Below are positions 6,057 through 30,278 of a stretch of 64,000 nucleotides of DNA, one piece after another. The notes beneath the pieces were generated by a model. That model worked only from the letters and a program-made list of their open reading frames with translations, was not told the DNA's origin and searched no databases. Within the stretch, counting starts at the first letter, position 1, and every line of letters begins with the position of its first letter. The position numbers were made by a program, and so were the translations under genes. The stretch comes from Geobacillus stearothermophilus ATCC 12980 (GTDB taxonomy: Bacteria; Bacillota; Bacilli; Bacillales; Anoxybacillaceae), in assembly GCF_030369615.1 (NCBI RefSeq), contig NZ_CP128494.1, forward strand, positions 2,251,501-2,315,500. The letters run 5' to 3'.

Positions 6057-6497
6057 TTATCGTCCTAAGAACGATTTCAACATCCAGACGTGTTTTTCCA
6101 AGCTGCGATGAATGCCAAGCAGCATATCCCCCGTCGTTTCATCGTTCACTTCATCCGCCAGCTGCATGCCTTCTTTCAATTCGCCGATCATCGTTTCAAA
6201 GTCGCCGACAATCGAAGCGACCATTTGCTCCGCCGTTTCCGTCCCGGCTGCTTCTTTGACGGACGCCTGCTTGAGGCAGTCTTTCATCGTCGCCACAGGC
6301 TTGCCACCCAAGGCCAACAGCCGCTCGGCCAGTGCGTCAATGTGGATCGCGGCTTCGTTGTACAGCTCTTCGAATTTTTCATGCAGCGTGAAAAACTGCG
6401 GCCCGGTGACATACCAATGATAGTTGTGCAATTTCACGTACAACACAGTCCAGTTGGCGATTTGCTTGTTGACAAGATCGATCAGTCGAGTTGTCAT
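6057..6497 (-). CDS. dps: Dps-family ferritin-like DNA-protection protein
   Basis: A 146-residue Dps/mini-ferritin that oxidises and stores iron as a dodecamer and protects DNA against peroxide. The intersubunit ferroxidase ligands are visible as His27, His39, Asp54 and Glu58, with the spacing (12, 15, 4) known for Gram-positive Dps proteins; [10 protein letters not shown] and [10 protein letters not shown] are family hallmarks. AAGGAGGAG lies before ATG 6497. A sigma-B-like promoter lies directly upstream at 6523-6548, as known for B. subtilis dps, so general-stress control is likely. The gene sits between ytkD and luxS. Confidence 0.92.
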
Positions 6498-7175: not shown

Positions 7176-7652
7176 TCAGCCAAACACCTTTTTCAACTCT
7201 TCTTTCTCTTGCGAAAGCCAAAAGCGCATCAGCTGTTTGGCCGCCTCTAGATCATGCAGCTTCGCTTGGCCGCATTGCCGCTCGGTCGCGGCTGGCACTT
7301 CCGTCGCGGCGAGCGCGTCCTTCATGGCTTCTTCCAACAAATCAATGATCTCGTCCACGGTTGGCGAGCCGCTCACGACAAGATAAAACCCGGTTTGGCA
7401 GCCCATCGGCGAGATGTCGATAATATCGAAATGATCATATTTGGCCGCATGTCGGCGCAGCGTATACGCAAGCAGGTGCTCGAGCGTATGAATCGCGGCC
7501 GGATCCATCGCCTCTTTGTTCGGTTGGCAAAAACGGATGTCAAACTTATTGACGACGCCGTCGCTGCCGACTTTGTGAACGCCGCAATGCCGAACGTACG
7601 GCGCTTTGACCGCGCAATGATCCAATTCAAAGCTTTCCACCGGTGAAGGCAT
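7176..7652 (-). CDS. luxS: S-ribosylhomocysteine lyase LuxS
   Basis: A 158-residue enzyme cleaving S-ribosylhomocysteine to homocysteine and the autoinducer-2 precursor in the activated methyl cycle. The metal ligands His55 and His59 (HTLEH) and Cys127 (ERQCGQA) and the catalytic Cys85 ([10 protein letters not shown]) are all present. ATG 7652 is chosen because AGGAG lies 8 bp upstream; a GTG nine bases further out falls within that ribosome site. Full length for the family. Convergent with ytzI and divergent from yidD. Confidence 0.95.
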
Positions 7653-7804
7653 GTCAATCACTCCTAGTTATTTATTCTCTTTTTTATCATAACCAAGACG
7701 AGGAACGTTCCGCATCTTTTTTGCCTCTCGTTCGGCTTGGCGTCTATGCCCAAAAAGCAAGGCTGAGTCGGCGCTCCCTTCCGAGCGAACGACAGTTGTT
7801 TTTC

Positions 7805-8214: not shown

Positions 8215-9201
8215 ATGAGACTACCATCCATTCTTTTGTCTTTCCTTTTGGCGGCAAGCGCCTGGCTATACGGCTGCCAAGCAAAACCGGAGGCACATAA
8301 GGCCCAAACATCGAACGACCCATTGACGATTTATACAACCGTCTATCCGCTTGAAGACTTTACGAAAAAAATCGGCGGCGACGCCGTGAACGTCAAAAGC
8401 GTTTACCCGCCGGGAGTAGAAGCCCATACGTTCGAACCGACACCCAAAACCGTGCAGCAGATTGCCGATGCGGACGCCTTCATTTACATTGGCCACGGGA
8501 TGGAACCGTTCGCCGAAAAACTGCAGGAAACATTACAAAATGAGCACGTCCGATTTCTCGTTGCCACAAACGGCATCGAATTGCTTGAATCGAACCATGA
8601 ACAGGAGCATGCGCATGGCGAAGGGCACAAAGATGAACACGGAGAGGGACATGAGGAAGAACATGGCCATGAACACGGAGACAAAGATCCTCACGTATGG
8701 CTTGACCCCATCCGATCCATTTCGATCTCCGAGAACATCCGCGATTTGCTGATGGAACTGAAACCTGAAAAAAAAGACCTGTTTATGCAAAACTTTGAAA
8801 CGTTAAAGATGAAACTCGAGCGCCTTGACGGGCAATTCCGTTCAACAGTGGAGAAAGCTCCCAGAAAAGAGATACTCGTTTCCCATCAAGCTTACGGATA
8901 TTGGGAAGATCGCTACGGAATCAAACAGCTGAGCGTTTCCGGGCTTTCTCCGAGCAACGAACCATCGCAAAAAGAGCTGACTCAGCTCATCCAGACAGCC
9001 AAACAGCATCACATCCGCTATGTCATTTTCGAACAAAATGTTCATCCCAAAACGGCGGAAGTGATTCAGAACGAAATCGGCGCCAAGCCGCTCCGTCTGC
9101 ATAACTTGGAATCGCTGACCGATGAAGATCGAAAAGCCCACAAAGATTACTTTGCTCTTATGGCCGAGAATCTCCGCGTGCTGCAAAAAGCTCTTTATTG
9201 A
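8215..9201 (+). CDS. znuA: Zinc ABC transporter substrate-binding lipoprotein (ZnuA/AdcA)
   Basis: A 328-residue cluster A-I metal-binding lipoprotein. The signal ends LYGC with Cys21 as lipid site. Family motifs include TTVYPLEDFTKKIGGD, VEAHTFEPTP and DPHVWLDP, with a His/Glu/Asp-rich loop at about residues 125-158 (HGEGHKDEHGEGHEEEHGHE) typical of zinc rather than manganese binders. AGAAAGGAG precedes ATG 8215. The Zur box at 8155-8175 indicates induction in zinc limitation. No permease or ATPase gene follows, so it must work with components encoded elsewhere. Confidence 0.92.
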   Translation: MRLPSILLSFLLAASAWLYGCQAKPEAHKAQTSNDPLTIYTTVYPLEDFTKKIGGDAVNVKSVYPPGVEAHTFEPTPKTVQQIADADAFIYIGHGMEPFAEKLQETLQNEHVRFLVATNGIELLESNHEQEHAHGEGHKDEHGEGHEEEHGHEHGDKDPHVWLDPIRSISISENIRDLLMELKPEKKDLFMQNFETLKMKLERLDGQFRSTVEKAPRKEILVSHQAYGYWEDRYGIKQLSVSGLSPSNEPSQKELTQLIQTAKQHHIRYVIFEQNVHPKTAEVIQNEIGAKPLRLHNLESLTDEDRKAHKDYFALMAENLRVLQKALY

Positions 9202-9394: not shown

Positions 9395-11353
9395 CTATTG
9401 CAGCGAGCGGACATAGGCCGCAATGGCCGCAATTTCTCCCGGCGTCAATGTTTGCATTTCTTTCGTCCGATGGCGCCGGATTGCTTCCTCGATCGTTTTC
9501 GCGCTGCCGTCATGCAAATACGGGGCTGTCGCCCATACGCCGCGCAGCGTCGGCGTATCCCACTGTTTGGGCGTCCGCGGGTTTGTGAACCGGGCGCGGG
9601 CGTCGCCTTTGGAGGCGCGGTCCTTCGGATTGGCCGTGCCGATATCGTGCAAGTAGGCGGTATTGGCAGTCGTCAATTTCCCGTCCGGCCCGACCGCCTT
9701 GACGCTGTCAGTGAAATACTCGCCCCCATGGCAGCTTAAGCAATTCCCTTTCCCGTTAAACAGGCGCTCCCCTTCCTTCGCTTCCGCCGTCAAGCTGCCG
9801 TCCGCCTTTCGATACGGGCTTTTCGGCACGGGGAACGAACGCGGGTCGTTCAAGTAGGCGAGAATGGCGTCAAACATATGCTGGACGTTCGGCGGCAGCG
9901 GCTTGGACGGGTCGATCGCCGTCATGCCGCCCATCTCGCCTTGCACCGTATGAATGTAGTCGGTAAAATCGTCGCGCGAACCATCCCACATAAACAGCCC
10001 GGTTTTCGTCGTCAAAATATTGCTCGGCACGTTGCGCGGCCCTTTCGCCGTCATGAGCGTCAAGCCGTTGATGTCGCCGTCGCTATGGCACGAAGCGCAG
10101 CTCATCCAATTGTTTCCTGTAATGTTGATGGCAAACTCGTCGCTGTTGGCGCTGTAAAAGATCGTTTTTCCTTCACGCACGAGCGGGGAGAGCGAATCTT
10201 TCGCAATGAGGCGGATCGTGCCGCTCTCCTGCTTCGCTTTCGCATATGGGCTTTTTCCTCCGGTTTTGATCACGGCCAAATCATGGCTCATGGCGTTGTG
10301 GACGTAAAGCGTCTTCCCATCCGGCGAAATCGCGATCCCGCGCGGATTGTTGCCTTGGATGCGTCGCAAAATTTGCGTCGCCTTGCCGCCGCGGCGCAAG
10401 TCAAAGACGACGAGATCCTCGCTTCCAGACATGACCGCGTACGCTTTGCCGCCGTCCGGGGAAAACGCCACATCGTACGGATTGGAGACGATGATCGTCT
10501 CGTTATGAACATCAGTGACATTGATCGCGGCAAACAGCTCTTTCCGCTCGTCCGGCAACTCAACGTCGTTCGTCACATCAATGACCGAGATGGCCGGAAA
10601 CACCGTTTCCTCAAATTGGATCGGCGTATCGATGTTCGTCAATAAGTGCGGAATATACGCTTTTTTGCCGTCCGGGGCGATGACGATTTGCTCAAGCGTG
10701 TTCGGAATGCCTTGGCTCTTTTTTCGATCGGCTTTATCCGGCGACGGGGCGAGGGCGATTTCCTTGACCGCCCGCCGTTTCTTTGTGTCAATCACGGTGA
10801 CTTTAGCCGCCAAATATTGCGTCACGTACAGCTTCCTTCCGTCCGCTGTCAGCGCCAGCGCCCGCGGCCGATCGCCCACTTGGATGTCTTTGATCCGCTT
10901 CCCACTCTCAGCGTCAAACACCGAGACCGTGCCCGAGCGGTAGTTGGCGACATATACTTCCTCCCCATCTGGACTGGTGACGATGCCGAACGGCTCGATC
11001 CCCGTTTTCCAACGGTCAACGACTGTCCGCTTGTCAAGCGATACGACGTCCACTTCATCATCGTACATGCAGGAAACATACAGCGTCCGTCCATCCGGGC
11101 TGAGCGCCAGCTGGCGCGGTTCGCGGCCGACGGGAATTTCCGCTTCCTTCGTTTTGGTTTTCGCGTTGATGATTGTCACTGTATCCACATCGATGTTGGC
11201 GGTGTAGACATAGCGCCCGTCGCTGCTTACGGCGATGTTGTCGCCGTGCGCCGGGGCGTGTCTGACCACTTTCGGCTGCTCATGCCATGCCTTTTCGTCC
11301 TGACAGCCGGCCAACAGCGCGGCGATCGCCGCGGCGAACCACCATTTTCGCAT
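9395..11353 (-). CDS. Beta-propeller / di-CXXCH cytochrome lipoprotein, probably iron regulated
   Basis: A 652-residue lipoprotein; ATG 11353 gives the signal MRKWWFAAAIAALLAGC with Cys17 as lipid site. Residues about 35-380 hold repeated SPDG.. and YVANY..GTVSVFD motifs of YVTN-type beta-propellers. The C-terminal third carries two haem-binding motifs, CASCH (about residue 418) and CLSCH (about residue 537), plus PLRGVWATAPYLHDGS-like sequence typical of the MauG/di-haem peroxidase group. It would sit on the outer face of the membrane with covalently bound haem. A Fur-like box lies at 11378-11396. The substrate or electron partner is unknown. Confidence 0.75.
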   Translation of the reverse strand: MRKWWFAAAIAALLAGCQDEKAWHEQPKVVRHAPAHGDNIAVSSDGRYVYTANIDVDTVTIINAKTKTKEAEIPVGREPRQLALSPDGRTLYVSCMYDDEVDVVSLDKRTVVDRWKTGIEPFGIVTSPDGEEVYVANYRSGTVSVFDAESGKRIKDIQVGDRPRALALTADGRKLYVTQYLAAKVTVIDTKKRRAVKEIALAPSPDKADRKKSQGIPNTLEQIVIAPDGKKAYIPHLLTNIDTPIQFEETVFPAISVIDVTNDVELPDERKELFAAINVTDVHNETIIVSNPYDVAFSPDGGKAYAVMSGSEDLVVFDLRRGGKATQILRRIQGNNPRGIAISPDGKTLYVHNAMSHDLAVIKTGGKSPYAKAKQESGTIRLIAKDSLSPLVREGKTIFYSANSDEFAINITGNNWMSCASCHSDGDINGLTLMTAKGPRNVPSNILTTKTGLFMWDGSRDDFTDYIHTVQGEMGGMTAIDPSKPLPPNVQHMFDAILAYLNDPRSFPVPKSPYRKADGSLTAEAKEGERLFNGKGNCLSCHGGEYFTDSVKAVGPDGKLTTANTAYLHDIGTANPKDRASKGDARARFTNPRTPKQWDTPTLRGVWATAPYLHDGSAKTIEEAIRRHRTKEMQTLTPGEIAAIAAYVRSLQ

Positions 11354-11377
11354 TTCAATATTCCCCCGTTTTTTCAC

Positions 11378-11396
11378 GAAAATGATAACCATCCTC
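11378..11396 (-). promoter_or_regulatory. Fur-box-like sequence upstream of the cytochrome lipoprotein gene
   Basis: GAAAATGATAACCATCCTC matches the 19-bp Fur consensus GATAATGATAATCATTATC at 15 positions. It ends 24 bp before the chosen start codon, in the short gap after the preceding gene's terminator. Confidence 0.6.
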
Positions 11397-11410
11397 AATT
11401 TTACAAAGAA

Positions 11411-11441
11411 AAGCAGCGAATCTCAGTCGTATTCGCCGCTT
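11411..11441 (-). terminator. Terminator after the 692-aa lipoprotein gene
   Basis: An 11-bp stem (11411-11421 with 11431-11441, one G-U pair) lies just past the stop codon at 11450 and is followed on the minus strand by TTTTC. It separates this gene from the cytochrome gene, which has its own Fur-like box. Confidence 0.6.
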
Positions 11442-11449
11442 TCTTTCTG

Positions 11450-13528
11450 TTATTTGTTGCCGGATCCAACATTGACCTTGACCGTCCGCAACACCGGCGC
11501 CACGCCGTATGGGCCGCCGGCCGCCTGCACTTGCGGCACATGGTCGCGGTCAGTGTTGCCCAATTTTTTCCCTTTGATGTAGACATCTCCCGTATCCCAA
11601 AACTCACTTGCCTGCATCCCTTCCTGAAGCGTCGGGCCATCGACGATTCGGTCGTAAAAGTCGACGTAGCGGGAGATGATCGTTTCGCGGTCAAGGGATT
11701 TCGCCGTCTCATCCGCTTGGTCGTTGTTCAAGTTTTGCAGCGCCACGCGGAACACCCCCGACAACGCGCCGGCGAGCCACGGGGTGTACTTATCCTCTGT
11801 TTCTCCCGTATGGTACACGTGCCATTTTTGATCCCAAAAATGGCGGTCCATCGCCTCATAAACAAGGCGCGCCGCATCGCGGTACGCTTCGTCTTTCGTC
11901 GCCAAAAACGCCGCCGTCAGCCCGCGGATCGCACCAAGCTGGGCAAGAAGCGTCGGCTCGTCTTGATCCGGCCCTTGGCCGATCGTATAGCCGTTTTCGA
12001 CAAGCCCGTCTTTTCGCATCAAGTTGTGCATGATAAAATCCGCTTGCCGACGGATGAGCTCAAGCGCCCGCTTTCCTTCCGGCGTGCCAAGCCCTTTGGC
12101 GCTCTCTCCGCTCGCATAGCCGACCGGCATCCCGTCAATCGCCCGTTCGAAGATGCGGAGCGCTTCCATTGTATAGCCGGCTTGGAACGTATCGACCCGA
12201 TTTCCTTGCGTTCGCCCGTCATGTTCGGTCACAAACGCGCCCGCTTTTTCATTGAAATGCATGGCATCGATGTTGCGAAACACTTGCAGCAGCACGTCGC
12301 GGTTGACGGAATACGGGTCGTCGGCCACGCGGTCGTTGGCTGGATCGGCATCCACATTTTCTTTTGCCGCTTTCGGGAACGGTTTTCCGTCAAACACGGC
12401 CAAAAACGCGGGGTTTTGGTTTTTGTTTTCCGGCCGCTGGTCGGTCATGCCGAAAAACTCCGCCGCCGGCCATAGCATGAGCCATTGATCCTCAAGCAAG
12501 CTGCGGGGATCTTTGACGACCAACTTCGCCGCATCCGGCGCCAGCTCGCTTCCCCCTTCAGCCACTTCCACCGCGTGCGGCAAATAGACGAATCCCCCGC
12601 TTGGGTTGTAGCGACTACCGGCTGCCTTCGTCAACGCCTGTTGCTTCGCATCATAAAATAAATGGTCACGGATAAAAGCCAGCTTGTTCCATATTTGTTC
12701 CGTCAAAATCATCCCTTGCATCCCGTCGGCGGAACTGACGCCAAGAGCGACGTTCCCGCTTTGATCGTCGTTTGGCGTTTTCGCCTCCACCTCTTCATCG
12801 CTGTCTTTTTGATGAAAATTCCCCAAAAAGTCGCCGGCCCAAAGCGCTTGCTTCAAAAAGACACCGCCGTAAGCCGATGGCGTGAGCACTTTGTCCATTT
12901 TTCCGCGATCCCAGCGAAGCGATTGGAAATCGACTTGATAGACGGGAACGTATGTACCGTCGTCATTTTCCGCGTACACGTCCGTGTCAACCTTTTGCGC
13001 ATAATGCGGATCGCCGCCGGCGTACTCGATGAAGGTCGGGAACATGTTGCGGAAAATTTCCTCGCGCGGATAGCCGACGCTGTCCGCAAGCTCATAAAAA
13101 CGGTCGGCGAGTGCTTCATCGGCTGGCTTATGCTGCTGTTCGGCCCGTTGCTTGGCGATCGGGCCGTTGATGAGATGGAGCCCGAGCCCTGACTTTTCCG
13201 TCACCTCATACATGGCTTCCTCGGAATACTCGTATGACTCGATGCCGGCCGTATAGTCAAATTTCGTCGGCTCATCCGGCTTTCTCGCGTCAAGGGTGTC
13301 CAAATCAAGCCCGAGCCCTTCAGCGAGCGGTTCGCCCGAAAGTTCAAATTCCGAGTAGGCAAACATATTGCCGGCCGTATCAAAATGATCGTCCGCCACC
13401 GGCACGTGCAGGCGCGGCGCTTCCGCTGAACGGCCGTTCTCTTTCTCCCCGACGGCGGAACAGCCGGACGCCAAAAGCAGCGAGGCCGCCGCCGACGTGG
13501 CCATGACTTTCCAAGGCATGCGTTTCAT
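11450..13528 (-). CDS. Large lipoprotein of unknown function, probably iron regulated (692 aa)
   Basis: A 692-residue protein whose signal ends LLLASGC (Cys23 lipid site); ATG 13528 is chosen because GGGGGAG lies just upstream. I do not recognise a named family. The C-terminal half has repeated helix-pair patterns with aromatic and acidic residues (TFQAGYTMEALRIFERAIDG, YTPWLAGALSGVFRVALQ), suggestive of an alpha/alpha toroid as in six-hairpin glycosidases; that is inference only. A TTGAAT-N17-TATAAT promoter and a Fur-like box are directly upstream. It forms a block with the haem lipoprotein downstream and the DUF2325 unit upstream. Confidence 0.7.
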   Translation of the reverse strand: MKRMPWKVMATSAAASLLLASGCSAVGEKENGRSAEAPRLHVPVADDHFDTAGNMFAYSEFELSGEPLAEGLGLDLDTLDARKPDEPTKFDYTAGIESYEYSEEAMYEVTEKSGLGLHLINGPIAKQRAEQQHKPADEALADRFYELADSVGYPREEIFRNMFPTFIEYAGGDPHYAQKVDTDVYAENDDGTYVPVYQVDFQSLRWDRGKMDKVLTPSAYGGVFLKQALWAGDFLGNFHQKDSDEEVEAKTPNDDQSGNVALGVSSADGMQGMILTEQIWNKLAFIRDHLFYDAKQQALTKAAGSRYNPSGGFVYLPHAVEVAEGGSELAPDAAKLVVKDPRSLLEDQWLMLWPAAEFFGMTDQRPENKNQNPAFLAVFDGKPFPKAAKENVDADPANDRVADDPYSVNRDVLLQVFRNIDAMHFNEKAGAFVTEHDGRTQGNRVDTFQAGYTMEALRIFERAIDGMPVGYASGESAKGLGTPEGKRALELIRRQADFIMHNLMRKDGLVENGYTIGQGPDQDEPTLLAQLGAIRGLTAAFLATKDEAYRDAARLVYEAMDRHFWDQKWHVYHTGETEDKYTPWLAGALSGVFRVALQNLNNDQADETAKSLDRETIISRYVDFYDRIVDGPTLQEGMQASEFWDTGDVYIKGKKLGNTDRDHVPQVQAAGGPYGVAPVLRTVKVNVGSGNK

Positions 13529-13553
13529 AACTTGCTCCCCCATTTTATTTAAA

Positions 13554-13572
13554 AATAACGATTTTCATTTTC
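13554..13572 (-). promoter_or_regulatory. Fur-box-like sequence upstream of the 692-aa lipoprotein gene
   Basis: On the minus strand GAAAATGAAAATCGTTATT matches the 19-bp Fur consensus at 15 positions. It starts about 11 bp downstream of the -10 element at 13583-13588, where repressor binding would block initiation. Confidence 0.6.
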
Positions 13573-13575
13573 AAT

Positions 13576-13659
13576 CTATTTCATTATACGCCGGCGATTC
13601 CCTTCATTCAAAGCCGGAATCCGTTCCATCACATTCCGCCCGAGAAAGACGCTTTTCAT
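13576..13659 (-). CDS. Possible 27-aa peptide (MKSVFLGRNV...)
   Basis: ATG 13659 is preceded by GAAGGAGAAGAGGC, an unusually good ribosome site, and opens a 27-codon frame ending at 13576. The promoter of the large lipoprotein gene lies inside it, so the frame would be read only from upstream transcription. There is no recognisable family; it may be chance. Confidence 0.25.
   Translation of the reverse strand: MKSVFLGRNVMERIPALNEGNRRRIMK
13583..13611 (-). promoter_or_regulatory. Sigma-A-like promoter of the 692-aa lipoprotein gene
   Basis: On the minus strand TTGAAT (13611-13606), a 17-bp spacer and TATAAT (13588-13583) form a close sigma-A match, directly followed by the Fur-like box. Confidence 0.65.
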
Positions 13660-13675
13660 GCCTCTTCTCCTTCCC

Positions 13676-14164
13676 TTAAGCCGGAATCCACTCAATGCGG
13701 CGTCCGCCCGTCCATAAAAAGCAGCATTCCAGTTCGTTCGGACAACGTCCGATTGTTTTGCGGCATAAGGACGACGCCGTTTCTTTGCATCGCCGAATGG
13801 CTTCCTCTTCCTCACACCACAGCAGCACACGAACCCGGTCGCGGTAAACGATGTACAACTCCCGATCCGCTTCTTCGCCCAATCCGCCGTCCGCCAGCAG
13901 CAGCGGCTTGCATGCCGCCTCTTCCATCGAACCGAAAAACTGCAGCAAATGATCCGTCACCTTGGCCAACACAAGTCCGTAATGCAACGGCGTCGGAAAC
14001 ATCGACAAAGGAAGGAGCGAACGGTGCTGATCAATCAACCGGAGCAAGCAAAGCGGCGACCGCAGCGAAGGGGCGGTGTCGCAATACGCTTGAATGACGC
14101 GGCGAAGAAACCGGCGCAACGCATACGGCCAGACATCCAACGTCTCGTGATGGATAGACACCAT
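13676..14164 (-). CDS. Hypothetical protein, 162 aa, in operon with the DUF2325 gene
   Basis: A 162-residue soluble protein beginning MVSIHHETLDVWPYALRRFL, with eight cysteines spread along it (for example IQAYCDTAPS, SSLCRKTIGRC, ELECCFLW). I recognise no family. ATG 14164 follows CAGGAGGCGAGCC, and the gene starts 18 bp after the DUF2325 stop codon, so both are expected on the Fur-controlled transcript. Cysteine content and context hint at a metal- or redox-related role, but this is inference. Confidence 0.65.
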   Translation of the reverse strand: MVSIHHETLDVWPYALRRFLRRVIQAYCDTAPSLRSPLCLLRLIDQHRSLLPLSMFPTPLHYGLVLAKVTDHLLQFFGSMEEAACKPLLLADGGLGEEADRELYIVYRDRVRVLLWCEEEEAIRRCKETASSLCRKTIGRCPNELECCFLWTGGRRIEWIPA

Positions 14165-14182
14165 GGCTCGCCTCCTGTTTGT

Positions 14183-14473
14183 TCATGCATGTTTTCCCAG
14201 CTGCTCCAACACGGCGTTTATCGAGCTCCATGACCGTTTCGCAAAATAAATAGGCTTGTCTTTGCTTTTCGCCTTCTCTTTCACTTTCTTCGCCAAATTA
14301 TGGTTCACGTAATCGATCATGACCAATATGGCGTCGACATGCTCCGGAATGTCGCGTTTCACCATATTCACTTTTCGTCCATTGAGATGAATGATTTCCC
14401 GGAATCCGGAACGCTCCAATTTATCGGTAATATGGCCTAAATGATCGGCTCCGACAACAAGCAGTGATGCCAT
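14183..14473 (-). CDS. DUF2325 domain protein, Fur-box controlled
   Basis: A 96-residue protein (MASLLVVGADHLGHITDKLE at the start) matching DUF2325, a small Rossmann-like domain of unknown function that ends with a conserved lysine/arginine-rich segment such as KPIYFAKRSW. ATG 14473 is 8 bp from AAAGGAGG; a GTG one codon earlier is possible. The promoter at 14509-14538 holds a Fur-like box between its -35 and -10 elements, so induction under iron limitation is the simplest expectation. It begins a two-gene unit with the 162-aa protein. Confidence 0.78.
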   Translation of the reverse strand: MASLLVVGADHLGHITDKLERSGFREIIHLNGRKVNMVKRDIPEHVDAILVMIDYVNHNLAKKVKEKAKSKDKPIYFAKRSWSSINAVLEQLGKHA

Positions 14474-14508
14474 CACGAAAACCTCCTTTGCTCGCTTCTT
14501 TCTTTTTT

Positions 14509-14538
14509 ATTTTAATTGAGAATGATTTTCTATGTCAA
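14509..14538 (-). promoter_or_regulatory. Promoter of the DUF2325 unit with embedded Fur-like box
   Basis: On the minus strand TTGACA (14538-14533), an 18-bp spacer and TAAAAT (14514-14509). The spacer contains a box read on the plus strand as TGAGAATGATTTTCT (14517-14531), 12 of 15 matches to the Fur 7-1-7 core TGATAATNATTATCA. Confidence 0.65.
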
Positions 14539-30207: not shown

Positions 30208-30262
30208 TTGCACACAAGCGGATTTTTATATTATAATATATATAAGTTGATAATTATTATAA
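30208..30262 (+). promoter_or_regulatory. Promoter and Fur/PerR-like operator of the cation efflux gene
   Basis: TTGCAC (30208-30213), 18 bp, TATAAT (30232-30237), then TGATAATTATTATAA at 30248-30262, which matches the Fur core TGATAATNATTATCA at 14 of 15 positions and the PerR box TTATAATNATTATAA at 14 of 15. It lies at the expected transcription start and 17 bp before the start codon. Confidence 0.65.
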
Positions 30263-30278
30263 ATAACGGAGGTGCATT

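Follow-up and report, generated by a model that had tools for sequence, protein, structure and literature searches.

What do two adjacent lipoprotein genes do when each stands behind a putative operator of the iron regulator Fur? The question is raised by a 64,000-nucleotide stretch of the Geobacillus stearothermophilus ATCC 12980 genome (NZ_CP128494.1, positions 2,251,501 to 2,315,500; here the window), in which genes for lipoproteins of 692 and 652 amino acids (the 692 and 652 genes) lie side by side. A first-pass annotation, made from the sequence alone, had joined them with a DUF2325 gene unit into one probable iron-responsive surface system. Our preferred explanation, held at a probability of roughly 55%, is that the pair is an accessory to Ftr1-type iron uptake and forms a module repressed by Fur. 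The genes, lipoboxes, propeller, two CXXCH motifs, DUF2325 protein and cysteine-rich 162-residue protein that the annotation had named were all recovered in place. The features of the pair are:

9395..11353, minus strand: gene for the 652-residue lipoprotein, a fusion of a YVTN beta-propeller (residues 38-367, approximately) with a bCCP/MauG-like part that carries two haem motifs
9728..9742, minus strand: second haem c motif, CLSCH, residues 538-542 of the 652 protein (from sequence and alignment)
10085..10099, minus strand: first haem c motif, CASCH, residues 419-423 of the 652 protein (from sequence and alignment)
11378..11396, minus strand: Fur-type box before the 652 gene, 15/19 by 19-mer consensus scoring
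11450..13528, minus strand: gene for the 692-residue lipoprotein, of a family without description; predicted (alpha/alpha)6 toroid
13554..13572, minus strand: Fur-type box before the 692 gene, 15/19 by 19-mer consensus scoring, conserved across Bacillota
13583..13611, minus strand: promoter-like TTGAAT-17-TATAAT of the 692 gene, from a promoter scan

A linked gene pair behind conserved Fur-type boxes

The annotation had made recurrence of the genes in other genomes a test of its reading, and the two lipoprotein genes do recur together. The 692 gene was found in 29 of 101 related genomes and the 652 gene in the same 29 (29/29); the 692 gene is broken in one of them (G027), and in another (G022) the first 64 residues are missing from the 652 match. 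In two more genomes (G001 and G002) the 692 gene is absent and all that is left of the 652 gene is its last 124-133 residues; both are Geobacillus (L181, L182), and we read these remnants as pair loss. In a set of 79 loci, the best of 170 relatives (62 from Bacillota and 17 from Proteobacteria), the 652 gene lay directly downstream of the 692 gene at all 62 Bacillota loci, being split into two pieces in L095. A phylum-wide sample of 299 genomes added almost nothing on association, since at the thresholds used either gene appeared only in the host genome (G000) and in G079. Viral origin found no backing: 81 viral-contig stretches matched a pattern, and none of them encodes a relative of the pair. 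In Anoxybacillus amylolyticus (L237) a syntenic block with the pair sits beside menaquinone synthesis genes on a 258-kb plasmid, together with genes for a zinc-binding protein and S-ribosylhomocysteine lyase, an arrangement suggestive of the transfer of a large segment from one replicon to another. In Bacillus strain FJAT-14578 the pair is present twice, on different scaffolds (L102, L104).

Boxes were scored against two Fur consensus sequences, a 19-mer (GATAATGATAATCATTATC) and a 15-mer (TGATAATNATTATCA). The three boxes proposed earlier were recovered: those before the 692 and 652 genes each scored 15/19, equalled in 0 of 500 shuffles of their own regions, and the DUF2325 box at 14518-14536 scored 14/19 (p 0.022). 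Scores on the 15-mer were weaker, at 10/14 (p 0.1), 11/14 (p 0.018) and 11/14 (p 0.022), respectively; for the 692 box of the window the 15-mer gives weak support, and its candidacy derives from the 19-mer. Both strands of the window held three sites of at least 15/19, the two pair boxes and one at 30249-30267; in eight order-1 shuffles, read on a single strand, the count was 0-1. The promoter scan returned five hits against a shuffle mean of 3.1. Both strong promoters of the annotation were among the features seen, TTGACA-18-TAAAAT at 14538-14509 overlapping the DUF2325 box and TTGAAT-17-TATAAT at 13611-13583 just upstream of the 692 box; the promoter before the 652 gene is weak (9/12).

Conservation across Bacillota is a stronger test of the boxes than chance within a single window. 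In the 300 bp preceding the 692 gene, a site of at least 15/19 was present at 55 of 62 Bacillota loci, compared to 6 of 528 other genes at the same loci; at a cut-off of at least 14/19 the counts were 59/62 and 13/528. Three loci fell below 14 before the 692 gene: L094 has a 15/19 site farther upstream, and L109 and L145 have none of at least 14. This conserved operator supports Fur-type control of the pair, as first proposed. The Fur 15-mer scored above both the PerR and Zur consensus at 51 of the 62 loci, with nine ties and two below (L129 and L145, where PerR leads), and control by Zur or PerR was rejected. The spacing between the two genes exceeds 60 bp at 18 Bacillota loci, 12 of which, all Geobacillus, Parageobacillus or Anoxybacillus, have a box of at least 15/19 of their own before the 652 gene. 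The scan for this second box was confined to those 18; at the other 44, with shorter spacing, the genes presumably form one operon. In the window, a terminator scan found no classic terminator between the genes, and at about 11410-11447 the sequence shows an inverted repeat.

The DUF2325 unit parted company with the pair:

13676..14164, minus strand: gene for the 162-residue protein, nine cysteines, no family (open reading frame and profile search); separate Fur-type unit
14183..14473, minus strand: gene for the DUF2325 protein, 96 residues (profile match); separate Fur-type unit
14517..14536, minus strand: Fur-type box (14/19) that overlaps the DUF2325 promoter and is also kept where the pair is absent

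The 96-residue protein is a clear DUF2325 match (62.9 bits against a cut-off of 33.6). Its box is kept in 33 of 33 rows, several of which repeat one locus, pair-less genomes included. Both genes of the unit are retained in Geobacillus genomes that lack the pair (G003, G004, G012) and in the two remnant genomes, and the 162-residue protein has a match, sometimes weak, in 46 of 101 relatives. Because it persists without the pair, the unit is separate, and its proposed membership of the same system was rejected.

FTR1 permease genes in trans and in shared gene runs

The annotation had noted that no transporter was present. This is true of the gene group; elsewhere in the genome, about 150 kb from the pair, lies a Fur-boxed locus with an FTR1 permease gene (PF03239, 135.9 bits; G000:C1:2109774-2110382), and in some Proteobacteria FTR1 belongs to the same gene run as relatives of the pair. 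In the host genome itself the linkage is in trans only. The locus (L175, G000:C1:2103000-2117000) holds a 14/14 15-mer box at L175:8206 before the gene for a small secreted protein, AYS, and a 13/14 box at L175:13795 before a lipoprotein gene. That lipoprotein (L175:12559-13782), located before the FTR1 genes, bears a weak similarity to FEA1-related lipoproteins, at 22 bits where the cut-off is 250. The locus also carries sugar genes, encoding an NAD-dependent epimerase, a GT2 protein, an LPG_synthase_TM protein, a phosphodiesterase-like protein and a GT-C-like-looking transmembrane (TM) protein.

FTR1 was present in 27 of 29 pair genomes compared to 33 of 72 others (Fisher p 5e-6, a nominal value for related genomes that ignores kinship). 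Among pair genomes reached through the locus set it was present in 40 of 41, the exception being Parageobacillus thermantarcticus; for this count 20 close kin were left out of the 62 Bacillota loci, the genomes of the remaining 42 apart from that of L148 make up the 41, and several of the 41 are also among the 101 relatives. Thirty FTR1 loci, the best of 47 matches, were then compared. AYS lay within about 1.5 kb in 24 and a TM protein in 27, and in 28 the stretch of about 3.6 kb contained at least one site scoring 15/19 or more, a figure without a matched control. In Aneurinibacillus, genes for a lipoprotein, AYS, TM, FTR1, a phosphodiesterase-like protein and a glycosyltransferase precede the pair in the same orientation, with FTR1 about 10.7 kb from the 692 gene.

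Closer linkage was seen in Proteobacteria, where the 692 relatives at the 17 loci show 42-46% identity. A propeller protein with six CXXCH motifs follows within 0.2-5 kb at 10 of the 17, and a small membrane protein occurs in the same run at eight of these ten (a weak DUF4405 match in L165, 19.5 bits against a cut-off of 26.7; no family in L154). At 6 of 17 loci FTR1, a flavin adenine dinucleotide (FAD) oxidoreductase, AYS and TM share one run with relatives of both pair proteins. The Geobacillus AYS and TM proteins match their counterparts in these runs (E 1e-15 and 6e-18, compared directly on a small scale). FTR1 is present in 14 of the 17 genomes, adjoining the FAD gene in 13 of the 14. In six Aeromonas genomes FTR1 directly follows the six-haem gene and the 692 relative lies elsewhere. 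One oceanospirillal genome (G407) has, apart from its L163 copy, a second 692 relative beside D4405, FTR1 and FAD genes (L196), a partial run.

Predicted proteins, proposed role and rival readings

The 652 protein has its lipobox at Cys17. Two CXXCH motifs were found in its open reading frame (ORF) at all 62 Bacillota loci, and CASCH is invariant in our alignment (A2) and kept in ten aligned proteobacterial six-haem relatives. The closest solved structures are hydrazine synthase beta for the propeller and gamma for the di-haem part, which is also similar to bCCPs and MbnH. Structure matches for the predicted model cover the propeller; no fold is claimed for the di-haem part because its predicted local confidence (pLDDT) is mostly below 60. 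The Bacillota and proteobacterial haem proteins share the propeller, the first haem motif and Trp416. Beyond these the proteobacterial protein continues into a multihaem tail that resembles MtrC/MtrF and c554-type cytochromes, mostly below cut-off. We read the shared head and differing tails as what may be one iron-redox head with different electron exits.

The 692 protein (lipobox Cys23) belongs to no known family, as the annotation had supposed: profile searches gave no Pfam and no NCBIfam match at E 1. Its model is confidently predicted as an (alpha/alpha)6 toroid (pLDDT 88.2, predicted template-modelling score 0.90). The best conserved patch, residues 57-107 (Glu60, 62, 66 and 70, Tyr99, Glu100, Tyr101, Glu103, Glu104 and Tyr107), is near invariant in 80 sequences and could supply iron ligands. 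A lipobox-like site is present in all 62 Bacillota ORFs, and five of six proteobacterial N-termini inspected have ordinary-looking signal peptides, a distribution that resembles that of extracytoplasmic binding proteins. Extracytoplasmic iron handling or electron transfer, the theme first suggested, is still the likeliest.

We propose that the 652 lipoprotein would change the redox state of iron outside the membrane, in all likelihood from Fe2+ to Fe3+ at the propeller and first haem. In Bacillota the electrons would leave via the bCCP/MauG-like second haem to peroxide or oxygen; in Proteobacteria they may pass via the multihaem tail and, at most loci, the small membrane protein. The toroid lipoprotein may bind and hand over iron or shape the ferroxidase site, and the FTR1 permease, with its small secreted partner and its own Fur-type boxes, would import the iron. 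In this scheme, which would apply to many soil and thermophilic bacteria, a haem protein would fill the place that copper proteins or other haem enzymes take elsewhere. By analogy, oxidation is favoured over reduction because in yeast a ferroxidase supplies Ftr1p, and EfeU goes together with the haem peroxidase EfeB, as summarised in PMC9174327.

Several observations weigh against such a module. FTR1 occurs in 33 of 72 genomes without the pair, and it is missing from two pair genomes, P. thermantarcticus (G022/G414, locus L095; 652 gene interrupted in the assembly) and G038 (350 contigs), and from 3 of 17 proteobacterial genomes with a 692 relative. A second FTR1, longer at about 490-590 residues and of a size seen beside EfeB, is present in five of the 41 genomes (G417, G421, G440, G443, G450), which lie outside the EfeB search. 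Boxes before the proteobacterial 692 relatives are weak (2/17 at 15/19, 4/17 at 14/19), and the two Aeromonas FTR1 stretches scanned have no 15/19 box. The toroid is structurally similar to sugar epimerases and glycan hydrolases and lyases, which are not known iron binders. The lipobox pattern used is permissive: it marks 8 of 17 proteobacterial 692 relatives as well, and 5 of 62 Bacillota 652 ORFs escape it. The ten proteobacterial six-haem relatives lack both Trp456 and the C-terminal YLHDGS segment, which are confined to the Bacillota form, so a peroxidase step is not universal.

The same system could run in the reverse direction, with the haem proteins reducing or mobilising surface Fe3+ before uptake in the manner of an assimilatory iron reductase. 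We regard this as unlikely. The small membrane protein found in eight of ten six-haem runs, weakly DUF4405-like in L165, could feed electrons outward, and the MtrC/MtrF- and c554-like tail, mostly below cut-off, would suit that direction. Against it stands the second haem part of the Bacillota form, of bCCP/MauG type, a kind of domain that accepts electrons from a substrate or donor in the families concerned. P19/FTR1 clusters include flavinylated or thioredoxin-like proteins described as possible iron reductases in PMC8238504, which lends reduction some precedent; the ferroxidase partner of yeast Ftr1p (PMC9174327) speaks for oxidation.

In a further reading iron import plays no part, and the two proteins would be a peroxidase or electron-transfer pair of the cell surface that is induced by iron limitation and acts as a peroxide guard or as a substitute redox enzyme. 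The likeness of the di-haem part to bCCPs and MbnH and the nearby Dps-like ORF (6057-6497, named from reading the ORF) fit this idea, which we rate slightly lower again. It sits poorly with the lead of the Fur 15-mer over PerR (51/62 loci, nine ties, two below), with the co-occurrence and common gene runs of FTR1, and with the loss of Trp456 and the C-terminal segment in Proteobacteria.

The pair might instead be glycan-linked, the toroid processing or binding a surface glycan and the FTR1 locus building that glycan or glycosylating the FTR1 partner. We consider this improbable. No family sequence profile of AGE epimerases, GH76 or GH105 recognised the 692 protein, which has no Pfam family; the sole NCBIfam match of a proteobacterial 692 relative reached 15.4 bits against a cut-off of 800, and identity is 8-14%. 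Its best conserved patch is rich in Glu and Tyr, and we know of no such patch in epimerases or glycan hydrolases and lyases.

Handling of another metal, whether copper by an MbnH/MbnP-like route suggested by the MbnH-like di-haem match or zinc suggested by the ZnuA-like gene next door, is very improbable, as the MbnH model reaches only 62.5 bits where 362.85 is the cut-off, the 692 protein has no NCBIfam match at E 1, the Zur 15-mer exceeds Fur only in L145 (a locus without a Fur-type box), and the ZnuA-like gene is also present in G001-G004 without an intact pair (read from ORF starts).

The ZnuA-like binding protein gene (8215-9201) adjoins the pair in convergent orientation. Beyond it lie ORFs resembling LuxS (S-ribosylhomocysteinase; 7176-7661) and Dps, names again taken from reading the ORFs.

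The uptake module may represent an undescribed, widespread branch of Ftr1 uptake common to Bacillota and Proteobacteria, in which a c-haem propeller protein akin to hydrazine synthase beta-gamma replaces Fet3p/EfeB and an (alpha/alpha)6 toroid replaces EfeO; the anammox enzyme could then descend from an iron-acquisition redox protein. This wider proposal is tentative, at somewhat less than even odds. If true, it would assign a role to the hydrazine synthase relatives of non-anammox bacteria, suggest a function for two families recorded as 'hypothetical protein' and 'beta-propeller fold lactonase', and predict another haem-based way of feeding an Ftr1 permease. It would also offer a testable physiological role for homologues of hydrazine synthase beta-gamma, whose origin is called elusive in PMC12758564. 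A search of the open-licence literature by title and abstract start, with the closed literature outside it, found among the papers listed no description of the pair or of the FTR1 gene run. Two cytochromes c of A. salmonicida, identified by accession only, rise under iron limitation, and from the portions available of PMC9503180 and PMC4957856 no match to the pair system could be made.

Comparison with known iron and haem systems

EfeUOB/EfeM resembles the proposed system in combining an FTR1 permease, an extracytoplasmic haem protein and a (proposed) iron-holding protein with Fur-type boxes. Its parts differ: a haem peroxidase of DyP type where the pair has a c-type propeller/di-haem lipoprotein, and an M75 binding protein where the pair has a toroid lipoprotein without an M75 match. 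The genes of the pair system, unlike those of EfeUOB, lie at two loci in most Bacillota. For M75, AYS253 of the FTR1 locus gave a weak PF09375 match (18.2 bits against a cut-off of 23.5) and the 692 protein matched no Pfam family, in a search of those proteins and not of the whole genome. EfeB (PF04261) was found neither in the host genome nor in the 28 other pair genomes (29/29 without). It occurs in 9 of the 101 relatives, all nine also with FTR1; exclusion of EfeB by the pair (0/29 vs 9/72, p 0.056) is suggestive only. P19/FetMP and FtrABCD likewise combine FTR1 with extracytoplasmic partners, and no P19 match was found among the FTR1-neighbour proteins put to Pfam, whole genomes being outside that search.

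Fused hydrazine synthase beta-gamma homologues exist in Bacillus, and the available part of PMC12758564 names no role for them. The 652 protein scores 128.7 bits on the hydrazine_BC NCBIfam model, far from its cut-off of 1250. HzsC His144 aligns with Arg460, four residues from the invariant Trp456, and HzsC Cys165 has no equivalent in the pairwise alignment, where it falls in an insertion; Fur-type boxes mark the pair side. MbnH/MbnP is similar in placing a di-haem enzyme gene beside that of a secreted partner, and differs in that the 652 protein lies far below the MbnH cut-off and the 692 protein matches no NCBIfam family.

The Fur-regulated imelysin/DUF1111 di-haem operons of P. aeruginosa (PA4370-PA4373) and V. 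cholerae (VC1264, VC1266) are alike in coupling a Fur-controlled extracytoplasmic di-haem protein to a partner whose part in iron uptake is unclear, as presented in PMC3143127. The partner of the pair is a predicted toroid and not an imelysin (no Pfam family at E 1), and the propeller fusion and FTR1 link set it further apart. DHOR (PF06537) matches the 652 protein at 23.7 bits against a cut-off of 22, over the C-terminal part only. Judged by analogy, these Fur-controlled di-haem/imelysin operons are the nearest functional parallel to the pair.

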